Positions 22,984 through 32,288 of a DNA stretch of 64,000 nt are shown here, piece after piece. Below the pieces are notes generated by a model. It saw nothing but the letters and a program-made list of their open reading frames with translations. It had not been told where the DNA came from and ran no database searches. The position numbers and the translations under genes were made by a program. Where the stretch lies: positions 1 through 64,000 of the forward strand of contig JAAYVF010000029.1 of the NCBI GenBank assembly GCA_012517325.1. The letters run 5' to 3'. Positions within the stretch are counted from its first letter, which is position 1; each line of letters opens with the position of its first letter. Source of the stretch: Myxococcales bacterium. GTDB taxonomy: Bacteria; Lernaellota; Lernaellaia; Lernaellales; Lernaellaceae.

Positions 22984-23824
22984 CGTCACCGCCATCGTCG
23001 CGACGCGCGACCGCCCGGAGATGGCGGCCGAAGCGGTGCGATCGATCCTGGCCCAAACCCGCCCGCCCGAGGAGATCATCGTCGCCGACGACGGCGACGG
23101 CCGGACGGCGGCTGCCCTGGCCGCGCGCTACGGCGTGCAGACCACCCAAAGCTGGAAGCGCGGGCCGGCGGCGGCGCGCAACGCGGCGGCATCGCTGGCC
23201 GGCGGCGACTGGCTGGCCTTCTGCGACGACGACGACACCTGGCTGCCGACGCGGCTCGAAAAACAACTCGCGGTGGCGGACGCGGACACCGTGCTGGTTT
23301 TCGCCGACGCCGACCGCAGCGACGGCCGTCGGGAGTCGGCGGGGCGGAAACCCGCGGCCGGGTCGGTTTTTCGCCGGCTGCTGCTCGACAACTGGATTCC
23401 GACCAGCACCGTGTTGTTGCGCCGTGACGCGTTCGAACGCGCCGGCGGCTTTCATCCGCGTTTTTCTCCGGCCGAGGACTACGATCTCTGGTTGCGCGTC
23501 AGCCGGCTGGGCCAGGTTCGGTTTTTCGCCGAACCGCTGGCGACCTATCGCATTCATGCGGGGCAACTGCAGAACCAGCAGCTCGAGATGATCGGCGCTA
23601 CCGTCGCCACGGTGGAAAACGCCTGGCGGGAAGGACGGCGCGAATACCACCGCCCGGCCGGGCTGTCCGGCCGCTTGCGGCGCCTGCATTTTCTGCACGG
23701 CCGCCTGCTGGCTCATCACGGCTTCCCGGCGGCGGCGCGCCGGGCCTATTTGCGCGCCTGGCGTTACGCCTGGTTCTATCCGCCGGCGCCGCTGTTCTGG
23801 CTCTTGAGTTTTATCGGAATTTAG
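22976..23824 (+). CDS. GT2-family glycosyltransferase with extra C-terminal helical region
   Basis: A 282-residue GT-A family enzyme: TAIVATRDRPEMAAEAV start, ADDGDGRT, an LAFCDDDDTWLP DxD-type motif, and the later SPAEDYDLWLRVS catalytic-loop motif typical of GT2 rhamnosyl/galactosyl transferases. The last ~60 residues are basic and aromatic with an amphipathic tail suggesting membrane association. It overlaps asnB by 8 nt and is convergent with, overlapping by 4 nt, the phosphodiesterase gene. Confidence 0.85.
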   Translation: MPSVTAIVATRDRPEMAAEAVRSILAQTRPPEEIIVADDGDGRTAAALAARYGVQTTQSWKRGPAAARNAAASLAGGDWLAFCDDDDTWLPTRLEKQLAVADADTVLVFADADRSDGRRESAGRKPAAGSVFRRLLLDNWIPTSTVLLRRDAFERAGGFHPRFSPAEDYDLWLRVSRLGQVRFFAEPLATYRIHAGQLQNQQLEMIGATVATVENAWREGRREYHRPAGLSGRLRRLHFLHGRLLAHHGFPAAARRAYLRAWRYAWFYPPAPLFWLLSFIGI

Positions 23825-25899
23825 TCGGCGGCGGCCGCGCTTTCGCGATCGGCGAGCAGCCGTAACGCCGCGCTCTGCCGCGCCGCGGCGAGCAGGGCGG
23901 CGCGCCCTTCCTCATCGCCGTTCGCCTGGGCGATCTCCTGCCAGGTCAACCAGGCGGCGACGAAATCGCGGTCTTCCCGCAAGCAGTTTTCCACGGCGTC
24001 CTCGGCCTCGCTCCAATCCTCGCGCCGCTGATACACCCGGGCGAGTTGCAACCAGGTGGCGGGATCGTCCGGCACCGCGTCCAGCGCCTCGTGCAGGTAG
24101 CCGATCGCCTCGCGCCAACGCTGTCGATCGGCGGCGAGGCGGCCCAACCGGCGATACGCTTCCACCGGCGGCTTGTCCGCCCGGCGAATCGCGGTGCGGT
24201 AGGCTTCGCGGGCGGCGTCCGGATTGCCGCTCCGCTCGTGCGCCTGTCCCAGCATCAACCACAAAGCCGGCTGTTCCGGATCCTTGCGCAGGGCGCGATC
24301 GAGCAACGTCGCGGCGTTCGCGGGATGGTCCAGGGCGAAATGGCTTTGCGCCAGCAGGGCCACGGCCGCGGCGTTGCCGGGATCGAGAGCCAGAACGCGA
24401 TCCAGCTCGGCGGCCGCCGCCGACGCTTGCTTGAGCTGCATTTCCACCGCCGCCGTCGCCAGCCCGACGACGACCCGAATCGCGAGCCCGGGTTCGCCCG
24501 CCGGCCGTTCGCCAAGCCGGCCGGCCGCGGCGACGAACTGCGCCAGGGCCTCGGTCGGCCGGCCATGCACCAGCAAGGTTTCGCCGAGCAGATACTGCCC
24601 GACCGGGTTGTCGGGATGTTCTTGCAGATCGCGCTGGGCCTCCGAACGGCAACCTTGCGGTTTGCCGGTCGCCAGCAGCTCGAGGGCATAGAGGTTGCGG
24701 TCGTCGAACGGGGGCCGCGGCGGATCGGCCGCTTTTTGCAGGAGTTGCAACCGGCGGACGATCCCGTCGTCGTGGAGCGGTCCTTCCTCGGCGTAGGGAC
24801 GTCGGATGAACGCGTCGAGGCTCGCCACTTTGGGGAGCTGCGCCGGCGGCGATTTCCAGACATTCGCGAACGGGCGGCCGGGCATCTGGGCCGACTGCGG
24901 CAAACCCAGAAACGCCAACGCCGTCGGCACGAAATCCGCCGCTCGCGGCGATTCCAACGTCGAGCCGGGAATGATGTTCGGGCCGTACAACGCCGCGATC
25001 CCGTGTCCGGGATGCGCAAAATCGCCCGTCGGCGTGCGGCCCGCGAGGTAGCTCGGATCGTCGGTGGCGATCAGGACCAACGTCCGGCTGTCCGCGAGTT
25101 CCAGCAATCGGCCGAGCGCTTCGTCGACCGCCCGGGCATACCAGCGCGACGGTTTGCCGAAATCCGGCGCCGCCGCCGCTTCGCCCGCGGCCAGCGCCGC
25201 GCCGGCATGGTGCCGGGCGCTGTTCAGGCCGTCGAGATACACCGCCAGCAATTGCAGGCGCGGCCAGACCTTGGCGGCCAGCGCGGGAACCTCTTGCAGC
25301 GAGGCCTGCGCCAGCCGGGAAGAAAAACGCCCACCGCGCGGCACCCGGCCGACGAACGAATCGTAATCGGGCTCGTGCGCGGGCACCGGCAACGCTTCAC
25401 CAGCCAGTTCGGCCAGCAAGCCCATGCCGCGATAAAAGGCGAAATCGTCGTAAGCGACCTTGACGTCCGGCGGCACCGGGGCGCTGCCCGGCCAGCCGAT
25501 CACCCCCGCGGGGAGGCGCCGCCGCGCGGCGATTTCCCACAACGTCGAACTGGCCCGCTCGGGGGCCAGCAACCGGCCCGTCTGTTCGTCCAGGCGAATC
25601 GGACCGGTCACGCGGTGCTCGGCCGGCGGCCGTCCGGTCGCCACCGATACCCAAAAAGCCGCCGGCGGTAACGGTTCGTCGCCGGTCAACGTTCCCGCCG
25701 CGCCTTTTTCGCGGAGTTGATTGAAATGCGGCGCCTCGCCGGCCTTCATCATGGCCTGCAAGAGATCCCAACTGACGCCGTCCAGGCCGATCAGCAAAAC
25801 CCGCGGTTGCTTGGACAGCGTGGGCAGGCAAGCCGACAAGCCCGCCAGGAGCAGCAGAACCAGGAAAAGCGGGGTCATCCGACGCATGGCTGGGGTCAT
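23821..25899 (-). CDS. Type I phosphodiesterase/TPR lipoprotein
   Basis: A 692-residue exported protein: a hydrophobic N-terminal segment ending in LSAC (lipobox, Cys ~24), then an alkaline-phosphatase-superfamily domain (LLIGLDGVSWDLL near 36, GDFAHPGHGIAALYGPN near 290, a nucleotide-pyrophosphatase-like layout), then TPR repeats (~400-690, e.g. LAQSHFALDHPANAATLLDRALRKDPEQ). A similar pairing occurs in large bacterial exoplasmic phosphodiesterase proteins of unknown substrate. One metal-ligand region is atypical, so activity is uncertain. It sits between the glycosyltransferase cluster and the Lon gene, on the minus strand. Confidence 0.8.
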   Translation of the reverse strand: MTPAMRRMTPLFLVLLLLAGLSACLPTLSKQPRVLLIGLDGVSWDLLQAMMKAGEAPHFNQLREKGAAGTLTGDEPLPPAAFWVSVATGRPPAEHRVTGPIRLDEQTGRLLAPERASSTLWEIAARRRLPAGVIGWPGSAPVPPDVKVAYDDFAFYRGMGLLAELAGEALPVPAHEPDYDSFVGRVPRGGRFSSRLAQASLQEVPALAAKVWPRLQLLAVYLDGLNSARHHAGAALAAGEAAAAPDFGKPSRWYARAVDEALGRLLELADSRTLVLIATDDPSYLAGRTPTGDFAHPGHGIAALYGPNIIPGSTLESPRAADFVPTALAFLGLPQSAQMPGRPFANVWKSPPAQLPKVASLDAFIRRPYAEEGPLHDDGIVRRLQLLQKAADPPRPPFDDRNLYALELLATGKPQGCRSEAQRDLQEHPDNPVGQYLLGETLLVHGRPTEALAQFVAAAGRLGERPAGEPGLAIRVVVGLATAAVEMQLKQASAAAAELDRVLALDPGNAAAVALLAQSHFALDHPANAATLLDRALRKDPEQPALWLMLGQAHERSGNPDAAREAYRTAIRRADKPPVEAYRRLGRLAADRQRWREAIGYLHEALDAVPDDPATWLQLARVYQRREDWSEAEDAVENCLREDRDFVAAWLTWQEIAQANGDEEGRAALLAAARQSAALRLLADRESAAAAD

Positions 25900-25928
25900 C
25901 CGGCAATAAAAATTAAAAAGGGGAGCCA

Positions 25929-25962
25929 GGCGAAAAAACCACCGTCAGGTGATTTTTTCGCC
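25929..25962 (-). terminator. Intrinsic terminator for the Lon gene
   Basis: A 15-bp near-perfect stem (25929-25943 with 25948-25962), loop GTCA. Read on the minus strand it is CACC-TGAC-GGTG followed by a T-run, the expected order for terminating the Lon transcript. Symmetry makes it possibly bidirectional. Confidence 0.65.
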
Positions 25963-25997
25963 CGGCGAAAAACTAAGATGTCGATCGATGATGTTGC

Positions 25998-26168
25998 TTA
26001 CTTGGCTTTCTTGGCCGGGGCTTTTTTGGCCGGGGCCTTCTTCGCCACCGCTTTCTTCGCCGGGGCCTTCTTCACGGCCTTTTTGGCCGGGGCCTTCTTG
26101 GCGACTGCCTTCTTCGCGGGGGCTTTCTTCACGGCTTTCTTCGCGGGGGCTTTTTTGGTCGTAGGCAT
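25998..26168 (-). other. Possible internally started histone-H1-like peptide (56 aa)
   Basis: Inside the Lon frame an ATG at 26168 begins MPTTKKAPAKKA..., the start composition of stand-alone H1-like proteins. The codons for the preceding Glu run read GAGGAGGAAGAG, an SD-like purine tract at suitable distance. Independent translation would give a 56-residue, ~50% Lys/Ala peptide able to bind DNA. The fusion to Lon may equally be the only product. Confidence 0.4.
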
Positions 26169-28634
26169 CTCTTCCTCCTCCTCTTCCTTGTCTTTCTTGC
26201 CCTTGCCAAACTTGCGGAGAGCCATTGCCATCTCGCGCAAGCGCTGATCGACCAGACCATTTACCGTCCGGGGCGGATAGGTGCCGTCCGGCCGCCGTTC
26301 ACCGGCGGGAACGCCGGTCAAAAGACTGATGCCTTCATCGACGGTGGCGACGGCCCACAAGTTGAACTTGTGTTTTTTCACCGCGTCGACGATTTCGAGG
26401 GGAAGCATCAGGTCTTCGACGTTTTGCACCGGAATCATCACGCCCTGATTGCCGTTCAGGCCGCGCGTCTTGCAGATTTCGAAGAAGCCTTCGATCTTTT
26501 CGTTGACGCCGCCAATCGGCTGAATTTCGCCCTTTTGGTTCATTGAACCGGTCACGGCAATGCCTTGATCGATCGGCAGGCCGGACAGTTCGGACAACAA
26601 CGCGTACATTTCGGTGGAGCTGGCGCTGTCGCCCTCGATGCCGCTGTAATTTTGTTCGAAGGTGATGGAAGCATTGATGCTCAGCGGTTTGTCGCGCAGA
26701 TATACACCGCGCATGTAACCCGAAAGGATCAACACGCCCTTGTCGTGAATCCGCCCCGACATCTTGCTTTCGCGTTCGATATTGATGATGCCGCTCGTGC
26801 CCAACCCGATCTGCGCGGTGATGCGGGAGGGATGCCCGAAGGCATAGTCGCCGAGCATCGTCACGGCCAGACCGTTGACCTGGCCGACCACGCCGCCAGT
26901 CGAGCTGATGAGGATCAAGCCCTCGTCGATCAGCTCTTGCAGCTTGTCTTCGTAAAGCGACAGGCGTTCGCGCCGCGCCGCGAGTGACTGGGCGACGTGC
27001 TGCTCGGTGATGAGTTTTTTGTTTTCCCGCCGCGCGTAGTAATCGGCCTCGCGCACGATGTCGGCGATGATCGAAAAACGGGTCGACAGTTTTTTTTGCC
27101 GCCCCGCCATCCGCACGCCTTCCTCGGTGATCGCGGCGACCGCCTTGGCCGTGAGGTGCAATAGGTTTTCGTCGGTGATGATTTTGTGCAGGAACGACGA
27201 GTAGCGCACGATCATCTCGGCGTTCTTTTCCATTTCGTAGTCGAAGTCGGCCTTGACCTTGAAGATCTTCCGGAAGTCCTCGTCGTAATGATAGAGCATC
27301 TGGAAGAGCCAGGCGTCGCCGATCGCGACGATCTTCAGGTTGATCGGAATCGGCTCGGGCTTCAGGCTCGAAACGAGCATCCAGTAGTAAGCGTCCCAGC
27401 CTTCGATTTCCAGTTCGCGGGTTTTCAGCGCCCGCTTGAGGTTTTTCCAGACGCCCGCCTCGGAAATCGCGTCGAGCAGGTTGATGACCAGCACGCCGCC
27501 GTCGGCTTGCAGGATGCTGCCGGCGCGGATCTTGGTGTAGTCGGTCGCCCAGTTGCCGAATTTGTTGATCTGCTTTTCGACGAAGCCGAACAGGTTTTTG
27601 TAGGTCGGCGTGTTTTCGATGATCACCGGCAGTTTGTCGGTCTGGGAATTGTCGACGATGACGTTGACCTGGAAATCGAGGAACTCGTCGGGGCCGCTCA
27701 TGTCGGCGAACGGATTGGGCACCGGCTGTTGCGCCGGTTCCTCGTGCTCTTTGAAGCGCGTGATGTCCGACAGCACGGCTTCCTGCACTTCGTCGAGGTA
27801 GCGGAGCACTTTTTCGATCCGGTATTTCTCGCGCAGGTCGGTCAGCAGATCGGAAACGATGTGGTAGCCGTAACTCTGCTCGAGTTCGTTGAGCGCTTCG
27901 CGCATGTTGCGTTCGATCTGGCGCACTTTTTTCATGGTGCTTTCCAGTTCGTTGCGCAGCACGGCGTGCTGTTCCTTGAGGCGCTGCAACGTGTCGGTCG
28001 GGAAGTTGCCGTTGGCGGCCAGATTCTCGAGTTGTTCGAATTGCACCGGCTGACCGTCGATCAGCGGCAGGATCATCGGCCGCGTGAACGGGCCCATCTG
28101 CACCTGCACCATCGAGAAATTTTCGTTCTTGATGGTGCTTTCGAGCTGGCGGAAATTTTCTTTTTGCTGGTTGCGATGCTCTTCGATGATGGCGTCGCGG
28201 CGATCTTTGTATTCGGGGTTGTCGAAGATGTTCGGGACCGTGCGCTTCAGATCCTCGACCAGTTCCGCCATGTCTTTCTTGAATTCGGCGCCCTGCCCCG
28301 CGGGCAGTTTGATCGACCACGGCTTCTGCGCGTCTTTGAAGTTGTTGACGTAGATGATGTCCTGCGGCGGCGTCGCCATGCCGTTCATCTTTTTCAACAA
28401 CGCCTTGATCGTCGCCATCTTGCCGGTGCCGGCGAGGCCGCTGACGTAGATGTTGTAACCGGGAGCCCGAATGTCGAGCCCCAACTCGATGGCCTTCAGC
28501 GCGCGCGCCTGCCCCAGCACGCCGTCCAGCGGCGTCGCGTCTTTCGTCGTCTTGAATTGGAAGCAGGCAGGATCGCAACGCCAGCGAAGTTGGTCGGGCG
28601 ATAAAAGGAAGGACTCGCCGCTGAATCTCGCCAT
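25998..28634 (-). CDS. Lon-family ATP-dependent protease fused to an H1-like Lys/Ala tail
   Basis: An 878-residue protein. The N-terminal part is an AAA-type ATPase of the LonB-like COG1067 class, with Walker A GLAGTGK at 66-72. The protease domain carries the Ser-Lys dyad: Ser670 in GDSASST and Lys713 in GGVNEKIEG, 43 residues apart, the same spacing as Ser679/Lys722 in E. coli Lon. It is predicted to degrade misfolded or regulatory proteins using ATP. Unusually, residues ~810-822 are a run of acidic residues (six consecutive Glu) and 823-878 are a 56-residue PAKKA-type repeat (Lys/Ala/Pro), like histone-H1-like bacterial proteins. I know of no standard Lon with such a tail. A strong terminator follows. 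Confidence 0.9.
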   Translation of the reverse strand: MARFSGESFLLSPDQLRWRCDPACFQFKTTKDATPLDGVLGQARALKAIELGLDIRAPGYNIYVSGLAGTGKMATIKALLKKMNGMATPPQDIIYVNNFKDAQKPWSIKLPAGQGAEFKKDMAELVEDLKRTVPNIFDNPEYKDRRDAIIEEHRNQQKENFRQLESTIKNENFSMVQVQMGPFTRPMILPLIDGQPVQFEQLENLAANGNFPTDTLQRLKEQHAVLRNELESTMKKVRQIERNMREALNELEQSYGYHIVSDLLTDLREKYRIEKVLRYLDEVQEAVLSDITRFKEHEEPAQQPVPNPFADMSGPDEFLDFQVNVIVDNSQTDKLPVIIENTPTYKNLFGFVEKQINKFGNWATDYTKIRAGSILQADGGVLVINLLDAISEAGVWKNLKRALKTRELEIEGWDAYYWMLVSSLKPEPIPINLKIVAIGDAWLFQMLYHYDEDFRKIFKVKADFDYEMEKNAEMIVRYSSFLHKIITDENLLHLTAKAVAAITEEGVRMAGRQKKLSTRFSIIADIVREADYYARRENKKLITEQHVAQSLAARRERLSLYEDKLQELIDEGLILISSTGGVVGQVNGLAVTMLGDYAFGHPSRITAQIGLGTSGIINIERESKMSGRIHDKGVLILSGYMRGVYLRDKPLSINASITFEQNYSGIEGDSASSTEMYALLSELSGLPIDQGIAVTGSMNQKGEIQPIGGVNEKIEGFFEICKTRGLNGNQGVMIPVQNVEDLMLPLEIVDAVKKHKFNLWAVATVDEGISLLTGVPAGERRPDGTYPPRTVNGLVDQRLREMAMALRKFGKGKKDKEEEEEEMPTTKKAPAKKAVKKAPAKKAVAKKAPAKKAVKKAPAKKAVAKKAPAKKAPAKKAK

Positions 28635-30655: not shown

Positions 30656-32236
30656 TTACGGCGCGCCGACGACGGCGAAGGATTGCGTGTCGGGATCGTA
30701 CAGTTCCGCCGTCGCCGCGGGATCGGGGGCGAACAGATCGACGGAGCGATTGCCACCGGTGACGAGCACGCGGCCGTCGGGCAGCCGGCCGATTTCGGGC
30801 ACGGTGCGCGGCGAATTGAGCGCGCCGACGCCGACGAAGATTTCCTGGTCGGGCTGATAAAGCTCGGCGCTGTCGAGCACGACCTGATCGGCGATGCCGC
30901 CGCAGATCAACACCGTACCGTCGGCCAGCGCCGCGGCGCGATGCCCGCTGCGCGCCTGCAGCAGCGAGCCGGTGAAGGCGAAATACGGATCACCGGCCGG
31001 CGCGAACAGCTCGGCGGTGGCGACTTCGGCGCCGCCGGAGAGCGTGCCGGAAAAACCGCCGGCGATCAGCCAGCGGCCGTCGGCCAATTCGGTCAGCGTG
31101 GCGTTCAACCGCCCCGCCTGCATCGGCGTTTCGTGGTCGGGGATGCCTTGCAGGTCGGTGACGCGCAGGTTGTCGAGGCGCACCGCCGCCGCGCCGGGCA
31201 CCGTCTGGAAGCCGTCGAAGCCGCCGAAGATGACCACCCCATCGCCGATCACCGCCGCCGTATGGCCGTAGCGCGGATTCGGCAGCACGTCGGTCAGCAG
31301 CGTGAAGGTCAGCGCCGCGGGATCGAACACCTACAGCGTATCCAGCGCGTTGACGCCGTCGGAACCGCCCGCGATCAGCACGCGCCCGTCGGGCAGCGGC
31401 GTCGCGGTGTGCAGGGCGCGGCCGATCTCCATCCGGTCGTCGACCAGGGTGAAGGTTTGGTCGTCGGGATCGAAAATCTCGGCCGAATTCAACGTCTGGG
31501 CGAAGCCTTCCTCGTAGCCGCCGACGAGCAGCACCCGGCCGTCGTCCAGCAGCGTCGCGGTGTGGCTGAAGCGTTCCTTGTGCATGCGGTTCTGCACCGC
31601 GGTGAAGCGTTCCGTCGCCGGATCGAAAATTTCCGCGCGATCCAGCGGCCCCGCGTGGCCGATTCCACCGGCGAGCAGCACGCGGTCGTCGGCGAGTGTC
31701 GTTTGCGTGTGGGCCAGCCGCGCCCAGACCAGCGAACCCGGCGCCGCCGCCGCGCGCGCCGACTCGGCGTAATTGGGCAATTCGTCGTAAGCGATCGCCT
31801 CGTAGTAGTAGACGCCGCCGATCGTCACATCATCGTCGACGAATTCCTTCACGTGCCGCGACAGGTTGGCGATCACCACGCCAGCGCCCAGCGCGTCGCC
31901 GACCTGGTACCGTTCGCTCCGCACCGGCAGGGCGTCGGGATAATCGTCGGTGGCGCGCACGATCAGTACGCCTTCCAGATCCTCGTTGGCGTCCTGCAAA
32001 TCCTCCTGCAGATCCTCGTCGAGATCCTCGGTATTATCCTCGCCGGCGATGCCCCAGGTTAGCAGCACGTTGCCGGCGCCGGCTTCGGCGTCGAACGTTT
32101 CCACCACCAGGGGCGGATTGATGTCGGGATCCTCTTCCTCGGTGTCGACGATCCGCTCGGGGCAACCCGTCAAAAGCAGCGCCGCCCAGGCCAGCAGTAC
32201 GCCGAACAGCAACCGCCGGCGCCAAACCCGCATCAT
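30656..32236 (-). pseudogene. Kelch-repeat lipoprotein interrupted by an in-frame TAG
   Basis: A lipoprotein (lipobox LTGC, Cys25) with a middle FN3-like region and Kelch-type beta-propeller repeats (blades such as RVLLVGGY and RVLIAGGS with following AEIFDP). An in-frame TAG at 31333-31331 cuts the reading frame: upstream ends ...NALDTL, downstream continues VFDPAALTFTLL with no frameshift. Aligning blades (SAEIFDPDDQTFTL against TL*VFDPAALTFTL) puts the stop at a Glu position, a single GAG->TAG change. The remaining 224 residues continue the propeller. The start at 32236 has GGGAGG 7 nt upstream. A recent nonsense mutation is most likely. Confidence 0.8.
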
Positions 32237-32288
32237 AGCCATGCCTCCCGAACCGCTTCGCCGGTTCGCTCGTTTCATCACCTAACAA

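Follow-up and report, generated by a model that had tools for sequence, protein, structure and literature searches.

Proteases of the LonC type are thought to work without an ATP motor, and how they find their substrates is an open question. A lon gene of an uncultured bacterium from the phylum Lernaellota (FEN-1099) raises it anew, as its product continues past the protease domain into an acidic run and a lysine-, alanine- and proline-rich tail reminiscent of histone H1: what would such a tail do on a protease? We analysed the gene in a window of 64,000 nucleotides (contig JAAYVF010000029.1, assembly GCA_012517325.1), in the genome to which this window belongs and in its class, which comprises seven genomes including the window genome and from which six lon genes were aligned. 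Our leading proposal, to which we give a probability of about 0.5, is that the tail would act as an electrostatic tether holding the protease on a polyanion, with nucleoid DNA as the first candidate.

Gene, reading frame and natural end

The tail lies in frame with the protease core in a single unbroken ORF of 878 codons on the minus strand (28634..25998). The first-pass annotation had placed the feature without giving a strand, at positions corresponding to the 3' end of this minus-strand gene. The features of the locus used below are:

25998..28634, minus strand: Lon-like (LonC-type) protease gene with C-terminal tail, 878 aa (ORF and translation, Pfam, best PDB relative MtaLonC)
25925..25966, minus strand: intrinsic terminator with a 19-bp stem, just 3' of the lon stop codon
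26169..26186, minus strand: six-Glu run, residues 817-822, whose codons contain the Shine-Dalgarno-like GGAGGAGG
26001..26168, minus strand: H1-like Lys/Ala/Pro tail, residues 823-878, starting at a candidate internal ATG
26100..26156, minus strand: tail repeat copy 1, KKAPAKKAVKKAPAKKAVA
26043..26099, minus strand: tail repeat copy 2, identical in protein to copy 1, with 12 synonymous differences
26001..26042, minus strand: partial tail copy 3, KKAPAKKAPAKKAK

The C-terminal end of the protein reads KKDKEEEEEEMPTTKKAPAKKAVKKAPAKKAVAKKAPAKKAVKKAPAKKAVAKKAPAKKAPAKKAK, followed by the stop codon. The terminator beyond it has a folding energy of -33.9 kcal/mol (z = -6.4), which argues that the lon reading frame ends naturally with the tail. 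The six-Glu run and the 56-residue PAKKA-rich end (MPTTKKAPAKK...KKAK, two full 19-residue repeats and a partial third) reported in the first-pass annotation are thus borne out by the uninterrupted ORF, the repeats and the terminator after the stop. An assembly artefact or a frameshift into low-complexity sequence was rejected, the tail being in frame here and in the relatives, and the repeats differing only synonymously. An antisense ORF over the tail (25717..26247, plus strand) was discarded as a mirror image of the repetitive Lys/Ala codons, and plus-strand terminator-like matches inside the tail as mere consensus matches within repetitive DNA.

Downstream of lon, the gene at 23821-25899 (minus strand) appears to encode a phosphodiesterase/sulfatase domain with TPR repeats after it, and it keeps its position in two other members of the class, G001 and G002 (43-46% identity). 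Elsewhere in the window, two adjoining minus-strand ORFs (30656-31330 and 31331-32281) resemble a kelch-repeat protein and are perhaps one split or overlapping gene.

A LonC-type core with degenerate ATPase motifs

Pfam domains identified in the 878-aa protein are AAA_32 (LonB-like AAA), LonB_AAA-LID, LonC_helical and the Lon_C protease domain, and its best solved relative by sequence is MtaLonC of Meiothermus taiwanensis, with archaeal LonB far behind. An AlphaFold model built from 43 homologues (mean pLDDT 84) was compared with the PDB by Foldseek, and the ten best matches were all MtaLonC (E down to 4e-53; TM 0.88 on the target for 8k8v). The residues and motifs on which the assignment of the core relies are:

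26625..26627, minus strand: catalytic Ser670 (in GDSAS), invariant in 43 homologues
26496..26498, minus strand: catalytic Lys713, invariant in 43 homologues
26451..26474, minus strand: LonC-specific insertion 1, CKTRGLNG, fitting CX3GLX(G/E); found in 33 of 43 homologues
26379..26393, minus strand: LonC-specific insertion 2, IVDAV, fitting hydrophobic-X2-A-hydrophobic; found in 42 of 43 homologues
28416..28439, minus strand: Walker A-like motif GLAGTGKM, residues 66-73 (alignment columns), Met replacing Ser/Thr
27471..27500, minus strand: Walker B-like motif GGVLVINLLD, residues 379-388 (alignment with class members and MtaLonC), acidic Asp-Glu pair missing

LonC proteases have been defined by two insertions, CX3GLX(G/E) and hydrophobic-X2-A-hydrophobic (PMC3391209). 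Its modelled fold, its two insertions and the solved structures closest to it all identify the core as a LonC-type Lon-like protease and not a canonical Lon, which refines the first reading of the protein as a Lon-family protease. The Ser-Lys catalytic dyad is present with a B-type site, as in LonC (MEROPS S16.007), and the earlier numbering of Ser670 and Lys713 was right. The protein thus shares with MtaLonC its fold, the dyad, both insertions and the missing Walker B Glu, but it is longer and carries the basic C-terminal tail. With archaeal LonB (TonLonB, 3k1j) it shares the LonB-like AAA_32 and LID domains and the B-type active site, but the match is weaker and the protein here carries the LonC insertions.

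The Walker A motif had been described as intact: GxxGTGK is indeed kept, but Met replaces the Ser/Thr after the Lys in every one of the six class members whose alignment row is full-length, and the acidic pair of Walker B is missing as well. The same Walker B Glu is absent from MtaLonC (PMC3391209), an enzyme devoid of ATPase activity that reads GPPSLGKHE where GTGK is kept here, whereas archaeal LonB has complete Walker A and Walker B motifs with the catalytic Glu. These substitutions make ATP-driven unfolding and proteolysis doubtful, although still possible given that GTGK(S/T) is present in many homologues of this wide family. On the basis of its degenerate Walker motifs, the protease is probably ATP-independent.

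Composition and disorder of the tail

In the model, the last helix of the protease domain ends at about residue 811, and nearly every position from 814 to 878 (the last 65) has a pLDDT below 50, at about 36-39 per block versus about 90 in the core, so that this end of the protein is predicted to be disordered. The tail carries a net charge of +22 (residues 807-878), and no hydrophobic anchor was found in it. The HC2 profile (Pfam PF07382) gave 22.9 and 29.1 bits on the tail, below the curated cut-off of 40; at the level of sequence comparison, its likeness to HC2 and histone H1 is compositional.

Tails across the class

A C-terminal extension was found in all seven class genomes and was clearly basic in six of them. 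In the six aligned members, extensions are 28-82 residues long, with net charges of +22, +21, +7, +2, +5 and +8; that of the seventh genome (G006) contains KKDDAKKSQGGAKKSAAKKK. Among 37 homologues from other lineages, the median net charge was 0 and the median length 14, and in 18 further homologues outside the class the charge ranged from -3 to +7. Among distant members, a few likewise carry a basic tail (e.g. L013, net +14 or +15). The ordinary LonA of the window genome has no tail, which makes the tail specific to the LonC-type protease in this genome.

The form of the tail varies within the class. In the nearest relative, G001, it is made of KKTKPAKKTAPVKK repeats and not of PAKKA; in G003 it is NK-rich and weakly charged (+2), and in G002 it is short (+7). 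A homologue search for KKAPAKK tails, suggested in the first-pass annotation, was therefore successful in part: basic extensions occur across the class, but among the class genomes and homologues compared the long PAKKA form is restricted to the window genome. That annotation would have been overturned by close relatives all devoid of a tail or showing a stop before it; we found instead tails in frame, differing in sequence and length. An FG-K-x-K-K-D junction recurs before the tail in several class members, which argues that the tail grew in place. As these seven tails come from one clade, they count as one evolutionary observation and not as seven. From these comparisons, the best explanation of the tail appears to be a lineage-specific elaboration of a C-terminal extension, with no fusion to a separate histone gene.

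Two lon homologues in the set, those of G053 (L018, G053:C13) and G006 (L025/L032, G006:C23), are split across frames, probably through assembly frameshifts. The lon sequence of G002 is identical to that of the fen_1099 metagenome-assembled genome, and the agreement of this name with the GTDB phylum designation FEN-1099 (Ca. Lernaellota) is what places the class in that phylum by inference.

H1-like stretches on other proteins

Similar stretches occur on other proteins of the class, and in these sequences the lon tail is one of several H1-like tails in the lineage. The window genome encodes a Phasin/BMFP-like protein with a C-terminal PAKKA tail (L129:1465-1866, plus strand, G000:C85), to be compared with PhaF of Pseudomonas, and an M28 peptidase with a Lys/Ala-rich N-terminal extension (L130:293-1765, minus strand, G000:C83). 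A Lys/Ala-rich N-terminal extension is also borne by a class-III aminotransferase of G001 (L133:1735-3093, plus strand, G001:C10). Long H1-like arrays fused to another domain are encoded in G004, G005 and G006 (L127:2120-3268, plus strand; L126, minus strand, from 2557; L110). In G004 and G005 the array lies on the N-terminal side of that domain; the G004 protein includes ISTYPMTIHGKSPDGHVYSGVGSILLS, and a Pfam scan named no family for its domain part. In G003, a free-standing HC2-like protein of about 160 residues has repeats close to those of the window's tail (L128:1988-2470, plus strand, G003:C84). Four HU-family genes were identified in the window genome. The occurrence of H1-like stretches on such unrelated proteins makes the lon tail less surprising, and means that an H1-like tail is no marker of chromosomal function.

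A proposed tether on DNA or on another polyanion

The mechanism that we propose starts from a peptidase with a Ser-Lys site that would form rings and whose AAA+ module is degenerate; its probable role would be the degradation of unfolded or exposed polypeptides without ATP hydrolysis. Past about residue 811, each subunit would continue as a flexible acidic spacer and then as the Lys/Ala/Pro repeat; at about +22 net charge per subunit, a ring of six or seven subunits would display 130-150 positive charges on flexible arms. Through these tails the protease would stay on a polyanion, in the first place nucleoid DNA, in the manner of the H1-like lysine tails that hold HupB, actinobacterial TopA, PhaF and AlgP on DNA. 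With these four proteins, the Lernaellota protease shares a disordered C-terminal Lys/Ala/Pro repeat on an otherwise folded protein; their tails hold these proteins on DNA, whereas the present one sits on a protease. Lon itself binds nucleoid DNA in Escherichia coli and Bacillus subtilis. The retention on nucleoid DNA or a polyanion proposed here would thus be shared with E. coli Lon, but binding there involves positive residues on the ATPase domain and not a tail. For the protein of the window genome we infer that it forms rings, lacks ATPase activity, binds DNA and is localised in this way. The weak tail of G003 and the short tail of G002 suggest that perhaps only this genome and G001 have a strong tether.

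The first-pass annotation had considered the tail as DNA-binding. Its composition, predicted disorder and selection, the class-wide extensions and the known association of Lon with the nucleoid best support a DNA- or polyanion-binding role, but they do not single out DNA. Charge-driven binding is unspecific, and RNA, ribosomes, an anionic membrane or substrate proteins are equally possible partners of a basic disordered tail. A lysine-rich patch binds anionic membrane in NmPin; polyphosphate is bound by lysine-rich regions of YihI and RNase R and by E. coli Lon, and AlgP associates with granules of this polymer. It is therefore conceivable, if doubtful, that the tail places the protease on RNA or ribosomes, on anionic membrane or on polyphosphate. 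The missing hydrophobic anchor speaks against this reading, as does the genome content: neither PPK1 nor PPK2 polyphosphate kinases were found in the window genome (97% complete; control searches positive), which makes polyphosphate a less likely target.

Selection or slippage

Repetitive DNA, the great differences in length and sequence among the tails of relatives and the presence of similar stretches on unrelated proteins would all fit an expansion of low-complexity sequence through repeat slippage, contributing little other than solubility or charge. Against this stands the divergence between the two full repeat copies: 12 of their 57 bases differ, and all 12 differences are synonymous, so that the copies have had time to diverge in DNA and yet encode the same peptide. 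With about a quarter of random changes being synonymous under a simple single-change model, the probability of this outcome by chance is about 4e-8 to 3e-7, a test that relies on one pair of repeats and to which codon-level effects (Lys/Ala codon bias) could contribute. We consequently regard slippage as an unlikely explanation, although codon bias could account for part of the pattern; as read from these repeats, the tail is real and its peptide is kept by selection.

A candidate internal start

The first-pass annotation had also pointed to a Shine-Dalgarno-like run ahead of an internal ATG, and to a free H1-like peptide that might be initiated there. Both sequence elements are present, the ATG at 26168 being preceded by GAGGAGGAGGAAGAG. 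The predicted duplex with the anti-Shine-Dalgarno sequence (-12.5 kcal/mol, at good spacing) is the strongest among 197 in-frame internal ATGs of the window's longest ORFs and exceeds about 97% of the best start sites of these ORFs, and the region around the ATG is predicted to be mostly unpaired. Moreover, Lys-rich proteins of related genomes have N-termini similar to MPTTKKAPAKK, and the lon tail is the sole match to the HC2 profile in the window genome, weak and below the curated cut-off as it is. One gene could thereby yield two products, the protease with its tail and a free H1-like peptide of 56 residues.

The comparative evidence for such a peptide fails, however: no ATG occurs within the tail in any of the six other class genomes, and the tail GTGs of the nearest relative, G001, have no Shine-Dalgarno match. 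Furthermore, a six-Glu run yields such a motif easily. Random synonymous encodings of it average -7.6 kcal/mol, with 76% reaching -6 or better and 5% equalling the observed -12.5, suggesting that the match is largely a by-product of the Glu codons. A working second start at 26168 seems to us quite improbable, and the fuller reading, in which a DNA-tethered LonC-type protease is produced alongside a free peptide that would be the genome's only HC2-like protein, very unlikely. If it were true, chromatin-like compaction and local proteolysis would be encoded together, and the free peptide would compete with the protease for DNA.

Finally, the fusion of a separate histone-H1-like gene to lon through loss of the lon stop codon, which the Shine-Dalgarno motif and ATG at the start of the tail and the very similar repeat type of the free-standing HC2-like gene of G003 might evoke, is highly improbable. 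Relatives already carry Lys-rich tails, in frame, beyond the same junction, and in G001 and G002 no H1-like gene was observed immediately after lon, where the next gene corresponds to that of the window.

Implications for LonC-type proteases

The literature that we searched, with partial coverage, contained no report of a lysine-rich or H1-like tail on a Lon protease. With the protein described here, H1-like lysine tails extend to a further kind of enzyme, new in this respect, and they do so in a phylum that has hardly been studied. If it holds the ring on DNA or on another polyanion, as we propose, this protease would choose its substrates by place and not by unfolding power.
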